Shown here: in pieces, positions 971 through 19,190 of the stretch | How the letters are laid out: every line of letters starts with the position of its first letter | Numbering within the stretch: the first letter of the stretch is position 1 | NCBI GenBank assembly: GCA_000310025.1 | Contig: FN649736.1 | Coordinates: 3,147,416-3,168,820, forward strand | Source: Ectocarpus siliculosus | Lineage: Eukaryota > Sar > Phaeophyceae > Ectocarpales > Ectocarpaceae | Reading direction: 5' to 3' | DNA length: 21,405 nt | The notes under the pieces: generated by a model | What the model saw: the letters and a program-made list of their open reading frames with translations, nothing else | What the model was told of the DNA's origin: nothing | Databases searched by the model: none | Position numbers and translations under genes: made by a program

Positions 971-3615
971 CCAGTGGTAGGCGTTCATGACGACGTTAAA
1001 CTCGAGATCCTGCCCGCTCTGGAACGTGGTCAGGGGTTCCCAGTTGCTGCTGGCGGTGCTGTACGTGTTGCTGCCCGAAGGTTTGTTCTGCCGACAAACA
1101 GGTGCAGAGTCAGTCTTTAATACTCTCTCGCTCTGTCTGTTGTCTCTCTTTGCTTCCATGCATGTGGAAGTGGAGAGCTAAATGTATGTGCACCATCACT
1201 ACTGTCACCAACAAGTGAGCACGCTGTCCCACAAAGTCGTTACACGCCTGCGCCGTCGACGACATTTCAAGCAACAGCCTAAGTAGCCCGTCACACGGTG
1301 CAAAAGTGTGTATAGCTGCGATGATGTTGCATGAGCCGGGCCGGGGGGGGGCGAGGGCGTAGGTGTAGGTTGTTATACGATCCCCTCTTCCCCGCCTCGT
1401 CCATGATACCACACAACACCCTTGCTTTCTGCATGCGATACAACCTGCTCAAACAAGCTGGCTTGTACATGCGAGACGGGCGGGGTCTTTCACGCAACCA
1501 CTCAAAGGTAGAGGTCGTCACGTGGGGCCCTGGTTCAGTCGATGGGTCACGGGGGGCGCGAGAATATTAATATCTACCGCCCAGCTTCGCGAAAAGATCA
1601 CAATGAGCACACGACAACCCCCTGTTCCTACTGCCAGAAAACAACCCAGAAAAACAAGCAGTGCCTGGTACAGGTACGAACAGCTGCTCGGCGGTAGAAA
1701 GGGTCACGAGAAAAAGACGGGTATTGCGGTGGATGTGCCCACGCGTTTTTTCATTCACCACATGCATACCTGCTCGGGATCGCCGCACACGCCGTGGCGG
1801 ACTGCGACCTCGTTGGGCTCGAGGTAGTTACCGTTCGGGGCCCGCGGGACGAAGGACAGCGGGAAGTCGATCCCCCCCCCGTGTTTTGCGAGCACGTCCG
1901 GGTCCATGAGCTCATTCCCCCGCGCTTTTGTCCCGTTGGATCCATGGGCGTTGTAGCACTGAGGGCATCCGTCGAAGTTCGGATCGTCCCTGCGGTGGAG
2001 CAAAAGAACGTCACGGCCACGCGAGCGTTTGGGGGTTGCGGGGGAGTGAGCGCTGAGTGTGGCAAGTTCGGGCTCCTCACATCTACGAACCACACCGCTT
2101 CGCTTTGTCGTCCCGCCGCTTCGCCCCGTGGTTGAAAGGAACAGACCAGCACCATTCAACGCGCGCCGTTTGGTGGGTGCAGGCCAACGCCTGGACCTAA
2201 TGGAAAGGTCATCTGGCGAGCCCTCGCGACCCCCGTCATGATTGCTAAGGAAGCCGAATTCGTTTATTTTTGTTTTCACTTCAAATCAGCGCCCACAGCA
2301 CTGTAGTGCCGTTTACTCCAATCCGTGGTCACACAGAAGAGCCCCTCTCTATCCTCCCCTTCTGCGGTACTTTGCCTTCGAGTTTTAATGAGAGAAGGGT
2401 AGAGTACTCTCTTCCCTCTGTGTACAATACACACCAACTACTGTAGCGCTATCCACTACCAGGCCAGGAGCGGAAGCGAGAGAACAACTCACCTTGCAAG
2501 AAAAGCTCGTTTGCGCCGGGATTCGGACCCCTGACCTGACCTCTAGCAGGTTTCGAGGATACACCGGGGCGCCCGAACTACTACCCGACGTTTATTAATG
2601 CAAATTTGTAGCCGATGTTCTGCATTTACTGCGGTAAACTATTACATGGGTCCTGGGAAACTCGCACAAGTTACATACACAGTTCGCTCAAAGCTAGGGT
2701 TTTCGGCCAATGGCCAAAGATGATTTCGTGTTTCTGCTCTTCCAAGAAATCCATTGCAAAAGAATGGCAGAGATGAAACCGTTCTTTGCCGTCCCTTCGT
2801 CTACCTGCTCTTCCGCGTTGTCACTTCGAGAAATCACGCGTCAGTGAGTTCGACTTCGTGGGGGAACTCACTGTTCGTTCACTCGAACCAAGTAAGGTTT
2901 AGACTTGTATCTACTTCCTCAGACATAGGTATTCGCATAGCAATCGACCGCCTAACAAGCAGGGGACAAAAACAAACCACAGCTTGTGGTAAGGAGATCG
3001 TTTTGATTTACTGTATTCAATCGCGCGGTTGCTACAGCAAGATCTGTTGGAGAACTGTCTCGGTTGGGTTGTCGTTCACGGGAAAGTCTTTTCAAAACCC
3101 GAGCGGCCTGTTTTCTCGACGTTCACTTTTCTTTGTACCATCCATGAACACGGTTAGTTACAGTTATGAGGAGACGGTCGGGAGAAAGTTGGGCGCCGTC
3201 CACGCTATCTCCGCCAGGGCCCAGAAGTGAAAGTACACCACACACGTGATGGTTGGTATTCCCTGTACACAGACTGCAGACCAGATAAACACACGCATTG
3301 CAATATTCGAACACGCATGAACAGCCGTCCGTTCAACGCCGGATCGTCGAGTCCCTCCTTCCCGATCTGTTTTGGGAGATTTCATGTCTCCTGTGGCTTC
3401 TGGGTAGCAGTGGCAGCTACTCAGTCAACTAACCTTTCAATAGCCACATAGCCTCTCATATCGATCGCGACTCCTCCACAAGGCTCTTGAACTTACATAT
3501 CGAGGAAGGACTCGCTGTTCGCGAAGGATCGCGACATGGGGTATAGCTGGTAGATGTGGCCCTGGGCCTTGCGCAGAGCCGCCGCCAGGAGAACAGTGCA
3601 GAAGCGAGTCATCAT
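971..3615 (-). CDS. Partial second copy of the AA15-like LPMO gene, exons 1-3 only
   Basis: Three exons are visible on the minus strand: exon 1 at 3497-3615, exon 2 at 1770-1989 and exon 3 at 971-1087. All have GT-AG junctions and the same phases (2, 0, 0) as the complete copy at 8015-15356. Exon 1 encodes a signal peptide ending in KAQG, followed by HIYQLYPMSRSF, so the mature protein would start with the copper-binding histidine. Exon 2 carries CPQCYNAHG and the VRHGVCGDPEQ motif. Exon 3 ends NAYHW; the histidine before W aligns with the second copper ligand of the complete copy. Against that copy, 9 of 73 residues differ in exon 2 and 9 of 39 in exon 3, with no stop or frameshift. Two in-frame ATGs open exon 1 (3615 and 3612); the second matches the start of the other copy. 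Exons 4-10 are not in the window. They may lie left of the LINE fragment or be lost, so functionality is undecided. Confidence 0.85.
2265..2605 (-). mobile_element. tRNA-derived SINE-like insertion in intron 1 of the left LPMO copy
   Basis: This stretch is missing from the otherwise homologous intron of the right copy (gap near 14190-14230). On the minus strand it holds a good RNA polymerase III B-box, GGTCCGAATCC, at 2519-2529, within a T-arm-like GGGG...CCC context. Upstream is an arm ACCTG/CAGGT with an 8-base loop, and partly matching acceptor halves (GGCGCC...GGCGC). The loop is one base too long and the acceptor stem is incomplete, so it is not a working tRNA gene. A tRNA-like head with an unrelated tail of 200-250 bases fits a SINE. 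Target-site duplications were not clear to me. Confidence 0.45.
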
Positions 3616-4572: not shown

Positions 4573-4848
4573 GGGGGGGGGGGGGGTGGTACTCATAGCC
4601 GTGCATGCCGTAGTCGTCATAGACCATTGACCTCGCATCCCTACAAAGCCGGGACGGAGAACGCCGGGTTCTCACCCGACAAGGCTCTCACGTCACCAAG
4701 CGCGAAGCGCCGTGAGGTATTCGACGAGTCAGATGAAGGGTGCGCTGCATCCTGCTAAGGATGTTCGACATCTTGTGCGTACTTCCTCGCGTACGGATGA
4801 CAGCTGCGTATGACTTAATTTGTTTTCTGGTGCTTTCACTTACAGGGC
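4573..4848 (+). repeat. Dispersed G-tract-headed repeat, copy 1
   Basis: The unit begins with 14 consecutive G (4573-4586) and ends near TGCTTTCACTTACAGGG. It matches 16261-16533 in inverted orientation over about 270 bases with only scattered substitutions. A frame of about 60 codons read from the G-tract (through THSRACRSR, SHPYKAGTE, SPSAKRREVF to GCAASC and a TAA stop near 4756-4758) is open in both copies without an indel, but matches no family I know. It may be a non-autonomous mobile element, a conserved RNA or a short coding repeat. Confidence 0.7.
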
Positions 4849-8014: not shown

Positions 8015-11000
8015 TCAGCGGCCGTCGTAGTCATCTGGGCGGCACTCGGACCACCACTGGGAGTAAACAAACAAACAACGAAGAGAGCACGAAAGGACGA
8101 TAGTTGTTTTCGTGGATCATTTCCGTTTCGGTAGAGCGGGCGAGCCGAAATTATTTCGCAGGATAGGTAGGACATAGCGGCTCTTGGAGGGAGGCAGGGT
8201 TTCCTGCGGAAAAAATGCTCTGTTGCGTTTTTGTTGTGGGTTGTTGTTCACATATGAACCGCGTGAAGTGAATGAAGTAAGAATGTTGGAACACGAAGTA
8301 GAGAGAACGTATTGCTGGACGCTGTATCACATGCGCCACCCATTTAAGAATTCACACACACACTAATAAAAAAAACACACCCTCCAGATGGTCGATCTCC
8401 CTGCACATACGTACCACGTCCTTCTTGGTGCACGTTGAACCGGAGACACAGCAGGTAGGGCCGGTCCAGACGCCGTCGACGGCGCCCCCGCCAGCACCGC
8501 CGCACTGTCCCCACTCCTCGGCACACTCCGTGGGTTCTTCCGGGGTGTCGTCGGAGCTGCTGTCACCCGTCGGGCGGCACTCAGACCACCACTGTCGTGA
8601 CGGCACAAGAAAAGGCATGCGGACGCATATGGCATTATATTTCGTGTCTTCATGCGCAACAGGCAGTGTACGTGAGGGGACAAGAAAGGTGGTATGCACG
8701 AGCCACAGACACACAAGGGGGGCGACCCACTGCCCGATTGGAGAAAACGCTTTCATCGGTGGACCTATTCCCGCGGTGGGAAAGAGAAAAAAGCAAATTC
8801 GGATTGGCACGGAGAAAACAACGATGGAGCAGCGTTTGCTGCTGAAGCAACAGGCATTCTTGTAGGGAGAGAAGAAGAAGGCAGAGACAGGAACACGTGG
8901 AAAGATGGTTCCTTGACGTCAGCCACCATTCCCGCGGGGCACGGCAGCCGCGAAGACAAAGTAGCAGAAGCAAGCGGAGTTCCAGACCCAGTTTTCGTTT
9001 CGGTGTTCCAAGCTGCGCTCTCCCGGATGGAAAAAAGTGCCCAACGCTTGTTGACGCATCTCGAAGCCATCGTCTAGAAAAAAATGTGAGCCGCAACAAA
9101 GATGCGCACGTCGCGACGTTCACGCTCTTCGCGCGAAATGCTTACCTCGTCCTTGTAAGAGCAGGTGGTCCCAGACACGCAGCAGGTGGGGCCTGTCCAG
9201 ACACCATCCACAGCGCCCCCGCCGGCACCACCGCTGAAGAGGGAAGCATAAAAAGTTGTACAAAAAAATAGGCGGTTGACGCGAAAAACAACATGGTGAA
9301 AGCGCCGGCATCAGGCAGGAGCAGTCCTGCCTTTCGCGATGACGGCGTCATGGTTCTGCTTCTACATCCAAGAGAGGGGTTGGGTGTGTGTGTCTATGAC
9401 GATAGAGAGAGAATGATCCTATCCTTGTTTTTCGAGGAGAAAAGGACCGGCCTGCTTTGCCGCCATACTCCCAAACCGGTTCCTGTCGACCATCTCATCA
9501 TCGGCGAAAGACCATCGAAAACAAGAACGGGCTACCTATATCTGGGACCACTCTTTGTTGCTGGTACGTGTGACTTAGCCAACAAGCTTACACATGCATG
9601 GACGCATAACAAACAAACGAGCGACCGAATCCTTCAAAACTCACCACTGTCCCCATTCCTCGGCACACTCTGTTGTTCGCGTTGTTGCCGTGGAAGGGAG
9701 TTCCAAAAACGAGCGGCGCACCAAGAAGCGGTCGATGGGTGGCGGATGGTCAGGTATTATGCGGAGATTCCAGAGGTCCGTCGTGCTCTTGAAACGGTGA
9801 ACGCACGTACATCAGTATTCGTAACATATTGAAGTGCAAGGAGGGAGTTGACTACGGTTTTGTAGTATCTTGTGCTTGGTATTCGGGAGGACTTGCATAG
9901 GATTACTACTCGACTTCACGAGAGTTCCCAAATATCTTCCATCGCTGGGTGGTGGGTGGCAAGCGTCCTTCTCGCGCGTGTACGAACTCCACTCAAACGA
10001 TCGACAGCCCTAGTGGTCCTTTAAAGACCAGGGTATGTGCCAAATGATAAACCCGGCCTTGTAGCAGGTGCCCTCAGGACGTAGACTATATCGGTTAGTT
10101 CAGCAGTGGAAGCTTCATTCCGTAACCTATCGTGTGACAAGGTGTGTGACACGCGGTGTTACCGGCCTCGTCACACCGACGAATAGAGAGGATCACCAGT
10201 CGTGTACAGCACGGCGCGACAATAACCATGAATCTATGTCTATACGAACTTTGGCCTCTGCACAAACAACTGTGCGATCAACAACAATAACAACAGGAAG
10301 CTTCAAAGGGCCGGAGTTCGTGACCCAATCCGGCCGCCCCCCCCTCTGCCCCTCACCGGTTGGCTCGTTAACCGGGGGAATGGTCTCCACCGAGGGGGTT
10401 GGGCTCGGCGGCGTCGCATCTGGAGGGAATGCAAGCAGAGGGTGGACCACCGGGCGTGCATGACTATCAGAGTGATGAGGCATCCGGCACAGCCTTTCTC
10501 CTGATGGCCGCTGAGATGGTAGTCTCACAACCCAACGGAGAAGAGCGTCAGAGCAAGGACGATGGGTATATATGGGTAGCAGAACCAGGGGAGTGGCACT
10601 GACCGCTCTAGGCTAGACGCGAGGTTGGATCTCTGCTCTCGTTTCCCTGCCACAGCAAGTCTTATCACGGGCGATGGACGTCTTGGCGGGACGGGAGGGT
10701 GGTATGCACATCAACAAAGAGTAAGAGTGTTGATTCGAAATACTCTGCGAGTTGATGTGAGGAGCCGGAAAATCGGCGGCGCATGGTTGGCTCTTGTGTG
10801 AATGACCGCATGGACCACATTCGTAGTACGGCAAGAAACATGGCGTGTGGTCATCATCTTCTGTCCCGAGCGATTCCAACCGCACACAACAACAGCAGAA
10901 CTACATACAGACACCAGCACCCGCAAGACATAAATCCGTACATGCACCCCCCGCCCCCCGAACCTGTACCGAGCGCTACATACTCGCTCACCGCGCGTGA

Positions 11001-13044
11001 TGCTAAAGTCGGAGCACGCCCAGAACTCCTCGGGGTAGTAGCCCCCCTGCCCGCACGCCTCCCGGGTGGTGTCCACCCAGTCTTCCTTGTTGGGGGCGCA
11101 GGCGCTAGGCCACGAGGGAGGGTTGAACTCTTCGTACCCGATGTGGTGGCAAGTGTTCCCGGTGTCTTTGTTGCCGACATTACATGTTATTCATTCGATA
11201 CATACATAGCATTGACGCGCGAAGTGTGTGTGGGGAGGGTAAGACGTAAGCAATGACGTGTGTATGAGGATGTCAAGGAAACCTGGTTCGTGTGATGACG
11301 CGCAGAAAAGGAGATACACGACGCGTGGGCGAAATGCACTGCAGTACTCCTGCGGTTGCTTTGAATTTTGTCGCCAACGCGTTTTTTGTTATGCATGTTC
11401 TAGTTTCGTATCTGGCAGCTGCTGCCAACGTGCACCACACCCTCAATCTGATGCTCGACACAGAAACACCCGGTTCGGTCCTTGCGTATGGCGGTAGCAA
11501 CGTACGCCGTCGACGGTCGGGGAACTCGTGGTTGCAACGGCGGTTCGATGTCGTATCCACGTGCGTACCGAACCTACTCACGATAGACAGGGTGGTCGAG
11601 TCATTGTCAGGGGGTCGTGCAATTAGAGTACACTTCACGAATGTTGTGTGTGATGTGAGCTTGAACAGCACTAAACTGGCAACTCGATGAACCCCACCAC
11701 CACACACACCAGCAAGACTATCAACAACAACAACAACAACGAAAACTACAACGACGACGACAACGACAACAACGACAACAACAACAACAAACAACAACAA
11801 CAACGACAAACAACAACAACCAAACGTCCCGACTCACGGTACACCATCTGCAGGATGCAGTGCGAGCACTCGATGTCCGGCAGCACGTAGCGCATCTTCA
11901 TGTTCTCGCCGGAGATGGCGTGCAGGGGCTTGGTCTGGTCCACCTCGCCCGTCTGCCCGCGGCAAGTCGGGTCGCAATAGTAGCGCCCCGGGAAGTTGGG
12001 ATCGATTGGACTGTTGTCATCGTCTCCTTCCGCGCGCGTGAGTGGGTATTCGTTGAAGCACTCTTGGGTGGGGATACCGTCGGGATCGTTGTCGGCGTTG
12101 CAAATGAAGAACTCGAGGTGACCCTGCAACAAGTATGAATCGGGGCGGGGGGGTTGCTCATGTCAACGCAGGCCATAGTCATTTGACCTTTGACCACGCG
12201 TCCTCGAGAGGACGGAGCATGTCGGGAGGGGGAGGGGGGGGGGGGTGAACACACGCCGTACACGTTTGGCCTTTGACCTCGCATTCCTGCATTGCCGGGG
12301 CAGTGCGATGTGCCAGGTTTCCGTCGGCCCGTGCCATTGATCGGGAGAGGGTCGGGGGGGTTATTCCTGGCCTAATAGCGCTGCCTGCACGAGGAATCCG
12401 GACCAGACCAAACGGAACAGAAACAAACACGAATGGCCACTCTCTTGTCCGTGTCCGAGACAAGTGAGTCCTCCAAAGTATAGTTGTCAGCGTGTGGCGA
12501 AAACAATAACCGGTGGCAAGGGCGAACGGGTGGTTTCTTGTAACGAAGTTCATACACACACCAAGAAGAACCTGAGAAAGGAAGTTTTTGCAGATGTTCG
12601 GCTTGCATCCGGAATGAAACCACGAGACGAAATATTGCATCGAAGTTCCTAGCGTGGCGGTCGGCGCAGGCGGACGGTTTCGCGCAGGGGGCTTGCTCAA
12701 CTGCTCACCGTTTTCGGCTCGAGCGCATATTTCCGCGCCAGAGGGTATCGCGCAAAACGGCACATGCGGACAATACATACGTGGCCAATACTTGCGACTC
12801 CGGAGTCTCCCCCTACATACGGCAGGTGTTGGGTTTGAGGTCAAGCTAAGGTACTGCCTTTGAGTGTGATTCTTTCTTACCCAGTGGTGGGCGTTCATGA
12901 CGATGACAAACTCGAGCACCTGCCCGCTCCGGTACGTGGCCAGGGGTTCCCAGTTGCTGCTGGCCGTGCTGTACGTGTTGCTGCCCGCAGGTTTGGTCTG
13001 CCAGCAAACAGGTGCAGAGTCAGCCTTTAATTCTCTCTCTCCCT

Positions 13045-13076
<32 letters not shown>

Positions 13077-15356
13077 GTTATCTCTTTTTGTCTCCGTGCG
13101 TGTAGAAGTGGAGAGCTAAATGTATGTGCACCATCACAACTGTCACCAACGCGTGAACACGCTGTCCCACAAAGTCGCTACACGCCTGCGCCACATTTCA
13201 AGCTACCGCCTCAGCAGCTCATCACACGGTACCAAAGTGTGCATAAACGCGATGATGCTGATTGGGCCGGGCCGGGGGGGGGCGAGGGCGTCGGTTTAGG
13301 TTTTACGATCCCCTCTTCCCCGCCTCGTCCGTGATACCACACAATACTCTTGTTTTCTGCATACGATGCAACCTGCTCAAACAACCTGGCTTGTACATAC
13401 GCGAAACGGGTGGGGTATTTTTTACGCAACGACTCAAAGGTAGAGGTCGTCACGCGGGGCGCTGGTTCAGTCGATAGATAACGGAGGGCGCTAGAATACT
13501 AATCCTACCGCCCAGCTTCGCGAAAATATCACAATGAGCACACGACAACCCCCGCTTCCTACTGCCAGAAAACAATCCAGGAAAACAAGCAGTGCCTGGT
13601 ACGGGTACGAACAGCTGCTCGACGGGAGAAACGACCACCAGAAAAAGACAGTTGAGCCGTGGGTGCACCCGCGCGTTTTTCATTCACCACATGCATACCT
13701 GCTCGGGATCGCCGCACACGCCGTGGCGGACGGCGACCTCGTTGGGCTCGAGGTAGTTACCGTTCGGGGCCAGCGGGACGAAGGCCAGCGGGAACTCGCT
13801 CCCCCCGCCGTGGCTTTCGAGCACGTCCGGGTCCATGAGCTCAATCCCCCGCGCCTTTGTCCCTGCGGATCCATGGGCGTTATAGCAGTGGGGGCATCCG
13901 TCGAAGTTCGGGTCGTCCCTGAGGTGGAGCAAAAGAACGTTACGGCCGCGCGAGCGTTTTTCCGGGGTAGGGGGGGGTGCGCGTTGAGTGTGGCAACTTC
14001 GGGTTCCGCACATCTACCTACCACAACGCTTCGCTTTGTCATGCCGCCGCTTCACCCCGCGGTCGAAAGGAACAGACCAGCACTATCCAACGCGCGCCGC
14101 ATGGTGAGCGCAGGCCAAGGTCTAAACCTAGCAGAAAGGCCATATCTGGCGAGCCTTTGCGACCCCCGTCATGATTGCTAGAGAGGCCAATTAACCAACG
14201 TCTGTCAATCAACGCTAAAGTCAATGTTCTGGATCGACAGCAGATTATCATAGTAGGACGTTGTTAACAGAACACATGCGTCCAGCGAAACTAACATATT
14301 GTTATTTATGTAGTTCGCTGAAAGTTAGAGGATTCTTGGCCCATGGGCAGAGATGGTTTTCGTGTTCTGCTCTTGAAAGATTTTTTTTGTGGAAGAACGA
14401 CAGAGATGAAACGTTTCTTTGCTGTCCCTTCGCCTACCTACCGGATTATGCTTTTCCGTTTTGTAGCTTCGAGTTCAAACAACCACCGTATCGCGCGTCA
14501 GTGAGTTCGATTTCTTGAGGGAACACGCTGTCCGTCCCACTCAAGAAAGCAGGTTTAGGCTTGTCTACGCTACATTTTCTCACAAAGAGGTATTTGCATG
14601 GCATTTGGGACGTTCTAACTTCTAACTTTGTATGGGATCGTCTATGCTGTAGTCAATCGCGAAGTTGTTGCAGCAAGATCGGTCTATGTAAGTAATGTCT
14701 CGGTTGGGTTGCCGTTCACAAGTACGAGTGCATTTGAGCGAACTTTCTGCAAGGGACGGAGCACAGACGGCAAGCCTTTTCAACGCGCGAGCCAAGAGCG
14801 GTACATGTACATGTAGTTCTCTCGACGTTCGCTTTTGTTTGTACCGTCTGAGAACGAACGGTGGGGAAATTGATGAGGAGACGGTGGGGAGCACTGTTGG
14901 GCGATGTCCACAATATATCTTCGCCAGGCCCCGGAAGTAAAGCACACCCTCACACGGTTGGTCATGCATGGCTGTTGCATGTGCGCGGGAATAATCCCGT
15001 CCGCCTGCACACAGATTGTCGAAGAGATCCACACACACACGAATTTCAATTTTACACACATGAACAGCGGCAAAATGCCGATCGTCGAGTCCCTCCTTCC
15101 GATCTATATTGCGGGACCGCATGTACATGTCAACCCTAACCCTATGTAGCAGTAGCAGCTACGGTAGAGTAGCCAACCTTTCAACAACCACACAGCCTCT
15201 CTCATCGATCGCGACTCCTCCATGACGCTCTCGGACTTACTTGTCGAGGAAGGACTCGCTGTTCGCAAAGGACCGCGACATGGGGTATAGCTCGTAGATG
15301 TGGCCCTGGGCCTTGCGCAGAGCCAGGGCCAGTACAACGGTGCAGACGCGAACCAT
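8015..15356 (-). CDS. Secreted AA15-like lytic polysaccharide monooxygenase with two C-terminal CBM1 modules
   Basis: Ten minus-strand exons with GT-AG introns join in frame to 435 residues: 15241-15356, 13699-13918, 12881-12997, 11838-12123, 10992-11165, 10357-10419, 9645-9669, 9146-9233, 8415-8591 and 8015-8056 (stop). Residues 1-18 are a signal peptide ending AQG, leaving His19 as the mature N-terminus, the first arm of the copper histidine brace. Residues 19-304 form an LPMO_10/AA15-like domain: CPHCYNAHG, RHGVCGDPEQ, TYRSGQVLEF, NAHHW-GHLEFFIC (His150 as likely second ligand), CSHCILQMVYHTGN and EEFWACSDF (aromatic axial residue near Phe294). A Pro/Thr linker (about 305-325) leads to CBM1 modules at 327-368 and 386-427. 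Each has six cysteines, WGQCGG, WTGPTCC and WWSEC, supplying the three aromatic binding residues. The enzyme should oxidatively cut crystalline cellulose or chitin outside the cell; which substrate is unknown. Met at 15356 was chosen because it precedes the signal peptide, although the frame is open further upstream. Basic residues near the cleavage site are unusual. Confidence 0.92.
9645..9669 (-). other. 25-base microexon (exon 7) of the LPMO gene
   Basis: The sequence from an AACAG acceptor to a GTGAGT donor encodes only the start of the first CBM1, CAEEWGQ plus split codons at both ends (phase 1 in, phase 2 out). It is supported by near identity with the matching part of the second CBM1 in exon 9 (ECAEEWGQC). 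It also supplies exactly the phases needed to join exons 6 and 8. Automated gene finders are likely to miss it. Confidence 0.85.
11722..11820. repeat. Imperfect CAA/CGA trinucleotide microsatellite in LPMO intron 4
   Basis: CAA, CGA and AAC units run for about 100 bases and end just downstream (on the minus strand) of the exon 4 splice donor at 11832-11837. On the minus strand it is a GTT/TTG-rich intron start. Long poly-Val or poly-Asn reading frames here are artefacts of the repeat. Confidence 0.9.
12142..12300 (+). repeat. Two degenerate G-tract-headed repeat units in LPMO intron 3
   Basis: Two successive units each consist of a G-run, about 35 bases of variable sequence, and TTTGACC(T/C)... 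followed by GCGTCC or GCATTCC (near 12150-12205 and 12232-12296). The second resembles the start of the dispersed repeat at 4573 and 16533: G-run, CCGTA..CGT, TTGACCTCGCAT.CCT.CA, GCCGGG. They look like divergent partial relatives of that family. Confidence 0.45.
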
Positions 15357-16260: not shown

Positions 16261-16533
16261 GTCCCTGGAAGTGAAAGCACCAGAAAATAAATTAAGTCAT
16301 ACGCAGCTGTCATCCGACGCAAGGAAGTAAGCACAACAAGATGCCGAACACCCTTAGCAGGATGCGGCGCACCCTTCATGCGACTCGCTGAATACCTCAC
16401 GGCGCTTCGCGCTTGGTGATGTGAGAGCCTGGTCTAGTGAGAACCCGGCGTGCTCCGTCCCGGCTTTGTAGGGATGCGAGGTCAATGGTCTATAACGACT
16501 ACGGCATGCACGACTATGAGTACCCCCCCCCCC
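16261..16533 (-). repeat. Dispersed G-tract-headed repeat, copy 2 (inverted relative to copy 1)
   Basis: On the minus strand this begins with 11 G (C-run at 16523-16533) and runs to TTTCACTTCCAGGGAC. It matches 4573-4848 with substitutions and few indels. The frame shared with copy 1 ends GCAASC and stop in both copies. Confidence 0.7.
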
Positions 16534-18020: not shown

Positions 18021-19190
18021 TCACGGGCGCTTGGCCATGGTGTACGCGAGAAGGTCTTGCTCCCGTATCTCGTCCGACTCGAGCCACTCCATCACCAAAA
18101 CGTTCTTCCGCAGCAAGTCGTGCAGCGCCCAGTCGTGGTAGAAGGAGAAGGTGCTTCTCATTTATTTATTTTACGTTGAACCAGGTTAGAGACGTAACAC
18201 CGACAACAACACGCAGCGGCAGGGAGAGGGGGGAGTATCGCGTTAAGGCGGCGTTGGAAGTGGTAGGGCTGGCAACTACAGCAGCGAAATGAGAGGCGAT
18301 GGCTAGGTACACGACGTGACGTGACCCACGTCGCGACACCCACCAGATGACGTGCGTATGCACAGTCCCCCAAAACAAAAACACAAGATATAGACGCTGC
18401 AAGCACGATCACAGCACGTGCTAGGTCCGAAAGGAGGCAAGGAGATCAGAGCGCGCGCTGAGTTCACTTCCCCACGGCAAGGTACCCCTTCAAGTGCTGA
18501 CTACGCACGCCACCCACTCCACTGCAAGTGCAGCCCGGCTACGCTTCCTACCCCCAAGCGGGGTCACTGTCAACGCAAGAGCGACCTTTCGCGAACCCAG
18601 TCTCCCAGAGCAAACATAACCCAAAAAACGACCTAGGACATATTACAGATTGCGCCGAAGCACTTCGTGTCGGCCTTTCTAGGGATGCAGCAGCATGGAG
18701 CAAATGAAGAACTGCGCACAGCCTTTTCGCGTGAGCACGACCACGCCGCCCCTCCCCATCCCCCCCCCCCTTCTCCGCCTAAAAAACAAAATCACCCGCT
18801 CACGAGCCTTGCATGAGAACAAAAACCACGCTCCCCCACGGCCACAACAAAAAAAAAAAAAACTCTCACCAGAAGGTAACGAGAACAGCCAGCAGAACGT
18901 CCAGCGTGTAGTGCAGCTTGGACCCGATGATCACCAGGGCCCCCAGGGCCACGTACGCGTAGACCGCCCGTCTCACCGCCGACAAGACGCCTTCGGACAG
19001 GTGGAAACCCCTTAGGAGGACCTTCGTCTGGAGCTCCGAGGCGCGGCAGTACCTCCGGAAGGTCATCGCCACCATCACCAGGCAGGTCGTGTGCCCCGAG
19101 AAGACCATGTCGCCGCTGGTGGTTTGTTTTTAACGAAAGGCCGCGACGGGGTGAGACAGTAGTAGCAGGGGAAGTTGTAACAACAACAAC

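Follow-up and report, generated by a model that had tools for sequence, protein, structure and literature searches.

What does the long minus-strand gene in this stretch of DNA encode, and what would an alga use its product for? We analyzed the whole stretch of 21,405 nucleotides (the window; C11:3147416-3168820 of a genome assembly of 189 Mb in 492 contigs), in which this gene, gene A, runs on the minus strand from a start codon at 15356 to a stop codon ending at 8015. Its predicted product is almost certainly an AA15 lytic polysaccharide monooxygenase (LPMO) with CBM1 modules. The overall reading towards which we lean, with some reserve, is of a secreted AA15-type enzyme with two C-terminal CBM1 modules that would oxidatively loosen cellulose in the alga's own wall. 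Enzymes of this type are known; an AA15-CBM1 family of the scale described below seems little described in an alga.

Gene structure and encoded protein

Joined in frame, gene A comprises 10 exons and nine introns, with GT-AG borders at all nine and no internal stop in its 435 amino acids, confirming the ten-exon gene proposed in a first-pass annotation of the sequence. The protein opens with a hydrophobic, signal-like stretch (residues 1-18; cleavage before His19 was judged by eye and by hydrophobicity), after which come His19 and a core that extends to roughly residue 304. Beyond the core, a Pro/Thr-rich linker leads to the first CBM1 module (approximately 326-368) and another linker to the second (approximately 385-427), which is followed by a short tail. 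The gene model and Pfam thus bear out the signal peptide, N-terminal His, LPMO core and two six-cysteine CBM1 modules claimed in that annotation.

All exons lie on the minus strand. Exon 1 (15241..15356) supplies the start codon, the signal peptide (amino acids 1-18), His19, which would become the mature His1, and the start of the LPMO core; it has the same length as exon 1 of a neighboring paralog, gene B, and is 87.9% identical to it. The core continues through exon 2 (13699..13918; CPHCYN...HGVCGDPEQ; 91.8% identity to gene B), exon 3 (12881..12997; 89.7%), which closes at NAHHW with the second brace histidine, His150, and exon 4 (11838..12123; GHLEFFICN...CILQMVY; 96.2%), and it ends in exon 5 (10992..11165), where the putative axial Phe294 lies within EEFWACSDFSI. 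A linker rich in Pro, Thr and Ser follows in exon 6 (10357..10419). CBM1 module 1 starts in the 25-nt exon 7 (9645..9669), has its body in exon 8 (9146..9233) and ends in exon 9 (8415..8591; phase 0-0, 177 nt), which also holds the second linker and module 2; exons 8 and 9 are backed by the gene model and Pfam CBM_1. Exon 10 (8015..8056), placed like exon 6 by the joined gene model, encodes the end of module 2 (WWSEC), the short tail and the stop codon. Several introns exceed 700 bases, and intron 4 contains a CAA-type microsatellite (window 11721-11824).

The core is assigned to AA15

The Pfam check that had been suggested for the joined protein placed both LPMO_10 and CBM_1 above their cut-offs. 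LPMO_10 covered residues 21-300 (E 1.8e-15, 58.5 bits against a cut-off of 23), and a third family, Toxin_7, fell far under its own (12.3 against 27). NCBIfam gave only a weak match, to the SCE4755 family monooxygenase-like model (26.6 bits against a cut-off of 75). The AA15 assignment was tested against solved structures. In a search of PDB chains up to E 1, the sole LPMO matched was TdAA15A (5msz), an AA15 enzyme of Thermobia domestica, which supports the AA15-like core of the earlier annotation. The gene A protein alone reached it at E 4.3e-8, in a list of 11 matched sequences whose remaining ten bear CBM1. A profile built from seven family members reached it at E 3.1e-11 among 18 matches, three of which are weak and unrelated (two YPT7 chains and a spider toxin). 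In the family alignment behind the profile searches, gene B is entered as a model that skips one CBM1 exon. The PDB matches up to E 1 contained no AA9 or AA10 chain, and an AA10-type or fungal AA9-type core was dropped on that ground.

Both histidines that characterize LPMOs are present in gene A, one as the first mature residue (H19) and the other as a second conserved residue (H150). Aligned with TdAA15A, His150 corresponds to the second brace histidine (His91) and A148 to Ala89. Phe294 aligns with Tyr184 over a short stretch whose match is weak and by itself non-significant, and from this we take the axial residue to be Phe. Ten core cysteines, picked as invariant in seven members, recur in every AA15 locus of the genome and may correspond in part to the cysteines of TdAA15A. 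Ten conserved core cysteines are stated for Thermobia AA15 and its animal matches (PMC5823890; this source and PMC8393829, PMC3532174, PMC11468063, PMC13235733 and PMC13236599 are cited throughout for the parts of their text available to us).

The CBM1 modules

Pfam assigned CBM_1 to two stretches of gene A (whole-protein E 1.1e-13, 51.2 bits against a cut-off of 20.6). Each module contains six Cys, with a Trp ahead of QCGG and a pair of adjacent aromatics ahead of the last Cys. Across the genome, a pattern caught 11 of the 23 CBM1 modules; all 11 have the six Cys, and in all of them a Trp takes the position of CBHI Tyr5 and two adjacent aromatics those of Tyr31/32. We take these three aromatic positions to be the CBM1 binding face. 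All 23 above-cut-off CBM1 matches in the genome (of 36 listed) fall in or overlap AA15 gene models; the other 13 are under the cut-off, and such genome counts are lower bounds. As far as detected, CBM1 would thus occur in this genome only within the AA15 system.

An AA15-CBM1 family across the genome

We searched the genome with gene A (69 matches) and with a CBM1-less member (60 matches). In our grouping of the matches, 17 AA15 loci, one of them gene A, contain most of the core; the count leaves out an isolated exon-5 match at C75:212072. They lie on C11 (three: genes A and B and one near 2.19 Mb), C15, C16, C25, C70, C226, C3 (five) and C456 (four, in a tandem array). The least certain models are C70, C25, C456_910k and the CBM1 part of C11_2191k, which lies 12 kb beyond its core, and the stretches behind the C70, C3_6059k and gene B models contain N. 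The second His, the axial Phe and the ten core Cys are found in 17/17 loci, and His1 in 15/17, the remaining two models being without exon 1. The introns that gene A has at codons 113, 152 and 247 are found in the same phase in 16/16 intron-bearing loci, all of them modeled with gene A as the first query. Contamination as the origin of gene A was set aside in view of its 5.5 Mb contig and of intron positions common to paralogs on other contigs.

Thirteen of the 17 loci carry CBM1: three modules in one, two in eight and one in four. The four C456 members (C456:908000-952000) form a tandem set with no CBM1 match, their cores 90-97% identical to one another and their models ending in Pro/Glu/Thr-rich sequence; an extra AA15 exon-1 match lies at C456:899183.

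The algal host presumed in the first-pass annotation is supported by the EsV-1-7 motif family, for which the genome gave 150 scored matches from 880 candidates and 14 control genomes gave none; this family is expanded in brown algae. Taken with the giant-virus genes of the assembly, these matches indicate a brown alga, probably a near relative of Ectocarpus. Pfam models of GH5, GH7 and GH9 had no match in the genome, with GH6, GH12 and GH45 outside the search. We do not claim an absence of cellulases, because such searches are too insensitive in this intron-rich genome, where a comparable one with the LPMO_10 model found 1/17 AA15 loci, and because GH7 was silent in the control genomes too. 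The cellulose synthase model gave one marginal match with an internal stop.

AA15 is already listed for Phaeophyceae, and AA15-CBM1 fusions were noted at the family's discovery (PMC5823890). In three Saprolegniales species, CBM1 sits on over half of the AA15 domains, and in Aphanomyces astaci on 1/31 (PMC8393829). Given these figures and the 13 loci found here, the earlier view that the pairing of AA15 with CBM1 is uncommon does not hold. The striking feature is the size of the family, with 13 of its 17 AA15 loci carrying CBM1, though brown algae, represented by E. siliculosus, were reported to be without CBM1 (PMC3532174). The main text of a 2024 survey of brown algal matrix genes contains none of the terms AA15, CBM1 and LPMO (PMC11468063). 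We found no report of CBM1 or of AA15 expansion in brown algae in a search whose scope left out subscription papers and the CAZy database.

Substrate and role

An own-wall, crystalline-cellulose aim is plausible for the gene A enzyme. Under the proposed mechanism, the signal peptide would be removed and His1 and His150 would then bind copper, while the CBM1 modules would keep the enzyme bound to crystalline cellulose. Supplied with a reductant and either H2O2 or O2, the copper site would oxidize a glycosidic carbon, so that the chain would be broken without being pulled from the crystal. The alga could use this to loosen cellulose in its own wall during growth or the release of reproductive cells. 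Brown algal walls do contain cellulose (PMC13235733). We regard cellulose as the probable main substrate, and own-wall remodeling as a tentative proposal that we come close to adopting. To our knowledge, how brown algae loosen the cellulose of their own walls is poorly understood, and a family of 17 AA15 loci, 13 with CBM1, provides concrete candidates.

The following observations weigh against this overall reading. CBM1 modules are able to bind chitin too. Ala148 varies across the family (Ala, Thr or Asn). At E 0.01, Pfam left LPMO_10 unlisted for gene B and the C15 member and listed it for a C456 member; since the cores of gene B and the C15 member are 86% and 64% identical to that of gene A, we read these misses as a limit of model sensitivity. 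Four C456 members are without a CBM1 match, so cellulose targeting need not apply to the whole family. Finally, the axial residue is Phe rather than Tyr, as in TdAA15B; Tyr occupies the axial site in most Thermobia AA15s, and three have Phe, among them TdAA15B, whose activity is described as chitin-specific (PMC5823890). Cellulose is therefore not indicated by the core alone, but the CBM1 modules do point there.

The axial Phe of all 17 loci, together with the description of Aphanomyces astaci AA15s as chitin-active (PMC8393829), would also suit a core that acts on chitin or another polysaccharide, the CBM1 modules merely anchoring the enzyme to the wall. We consider this unlikely. Phe alone is not decisive, as cellulose-active AA10 enzymes with an axial Phe exist, and no brown alga is known to have chitin as a main wall polymer. 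A large, partly tandem family with one to three CBM1 modules is a pattern seen in defense and diet genes as well, and its AA15-CBM1 proteins are predicted to be secreted; the expanded set might thus attack the walls of algal parasites, such as cellulose-walled oomycetes, instead of the alga's own. This, too, we judge improbable: no link of these genes to infection emerged from our analysis, and own-wall cellulose is the nearer substrate. Moreover, over 305 codons of the core of gene A and gene B, the nonsynonymous (dN) and synonymous (dS) substitution rates were 0.076 and 0.146 by NG86 (ratio 0.52) and 0.068 and 0.270 by YN00 (ratio 0.25). A ratio below 1 is mild evidence that purifying selection acts on the core, which taken as a whole gives no indication of positive selection.

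Support for the gene A model

With a spliced aligner written for this analysis, we aligned eight paralogous proteins to the gene A DNA. They recovered 9, 9, 8, 8, 7, 6, 5 and 5 of the nine introns. Seven of the eight queries are not fully independent, since their models started from gene A. The independent query, an intronless paralog on C16 that is read from a contiguous open frame, recovered introns 1-4 and 9, that is, 5/9, and left the linker introns unrecovered. The best of 20 shuffled gene A proteins scored 87 on the same DNA, against 2425 for the real protein, which makes a chance match very unlikely. Exons 1-5 of genes A and B have equal lengths and 86.8-96.2% identity, and introns 1-4 have 73.5-88.2% identity over aligned bases, with many gap columns. 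The 25-nt exon 7 is the least supported part of the model: three of the eight queries placed it identically and a fourth starts it 2 nt later. That gene A is decayed or mis-modeled and yields no such protein is highly improbable, for although its predicted joins include long introns and the sparsely recovered exon 7, its frame is intact, GT-AG borders run throughout, its junctions are common to paralogs and consistent with the intronless copy, and its exons are better kept than its introns relative to gene B.

An intronless copy near giant-virus genes

The C16 gene (C16:4493631-4494737) has no introns and one CBM1 module. Among the open frames around it (C16:4484400-4504399), above-cut-off matches were to Erv1/Alr, SNase, thaumatin, SET, Kre9/KNH and F5/8-type-C families, next to repeat-rich frames; three of the ten scanned frames had no family match. 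The sole nucleocytoplasmic large DNA virus major capsid match found in the genome lies at C16:4438430, 55 kb from the AA15 gene. VLTF3 gave three matches, with the best of them at C16:4423235. Phaeovirus insertions in Ectocarpus span 288-407 kb (PMC13236599). On the strength of its distance to the only capsid match, the C16 AA15-CBM1 gene is probably carried by an integrated giant virus; alternatively, it may be a host gene adjoining a viral insertion. A second VLTF3-like stretch, with two matches of which one contains stop codons, lies at C9:5559519-5560014 and is probably an older viral relic.

In an unrooted AA15 tree, read with the C456 clade as the chosen root, the C16 copy sits on a long branch and groups with the host loci of C3 and C25 (98 ultrafast bootstrap); deeper nodes are weak (43, 75 and 77). 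Transfer may also have run from virus to host. In searches for prokaryotic and viral relatives, viral contigs gave no pattern match to the intronless C16 protein, and searches with the family profile gave 29 pattern matches in viral contigs and 23 in genome contigs, none of them confirmed, in a set that possibly excludes near relatives of the window's genome. The legend of Fig. 2 in PMC5823890 refers to AA15 in unnamed viruses. Monooxygenase, polysaccharide, cell wall and chitin are all absent as terms from the main text of PMC13236599, and so are these four, LPMO and cellulose from that of PMC12993054. If an AA15 copy does lie inside an integrated giant virus, its presence there would point to a use of this chemistry in infection as well. 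The combined proposal, that brown algae use an expanded system of AA15 with one to three CBM1 modules as one of the main ways to loosen the cellulose of their own walls and that an integrating giant virus captured one host gene to pass the wall, is speculative and we would not expect it to hold in full.

The tandem paralog and other features of the window

Gene B starts at window position 3612, lies on the minus strand like gene A and runs out of the window to C11:3136554. Its paralog model has 11 exons, GT-AG borders throughout, 467 amino acids and three CBM1 modules (three stretches in Pfam). Exon 1 (3497..3612), with the signal peptide and mature His1, exon 2 (1770..1989) and exon 3 (971..1087) lie inside the window on the minus strand, and exons 4-11, with the three CBM1 modules, to its left. 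Module 1 of gene A and module 1 of gene B are the closest cross-gene pair (117/132 nt). Within gene B, modules 2 and 3 agree at 125/132 nt, with at most 110 for either of them against any other module, and each lies for the most part in one of two neighboring 138-nt exons of phase 0-0, of which gene A has a single counterpart of 177 nt. Duplication of a symmetrical exon would be the simplest explanation for two modules in gene A and three in gene B.

Intron 3 of gene B (C11:3141270-3148385) is 7116 bases long and intron 3 of gene A 757; no open reading frame of 180 amino acids and no repeat of 60 bases occur in the part that was checked. An inverted match lies upstream of the two genes (window 16263-16533 and 4579-4847; 272 columns, 91.5% identity), possibly a small mobile element. 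Upstream of gene A, a PAP2_C domain exon occupies 18866-19126 on the minus strand (E 1.2e-11), and we read this neighbor gene as sphingomyelin-synthase-like.

Comparison with known systems

Gene A shares with TdAA15A and TdAA15B the His brace, predicted secretion and an Ala two residues before the second His, together with the core pattern CGD...TQ(D/E)CF...C..C(V/I)LQ and the end motif EE(Y/F)..C(A/S)D. It differs in its longer core and its two CBM1 modules, the Thermobia AA15s being described as core alone (PMC5823890). The axial site is Phe in gene A, Tyr in TdAA15A and Phe in TdAA15B. It would share the histidine-brace copper site with AA10 and AA9 LPMOs, of which no PDB chain was matched up to E 1. 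The AA15-CBM1 proteins of Saprolegniales likewise have CBM1 fused C-terminal to the AA15 core, a likeness drawn from description and not from sequence; tandem and triple CBM1 modules, present here, are unmentioned in the available text on those species (PMC8393829). The modules themselves resemble fungal CBM1 (CBHI, PDB 1cbh) in the pattern QCGG...C..G.TC......S.C and in the three aromatic positions. They depart from it by having two additional Cys, and those of genes A and B also by a 7-residue insert after QCGG.

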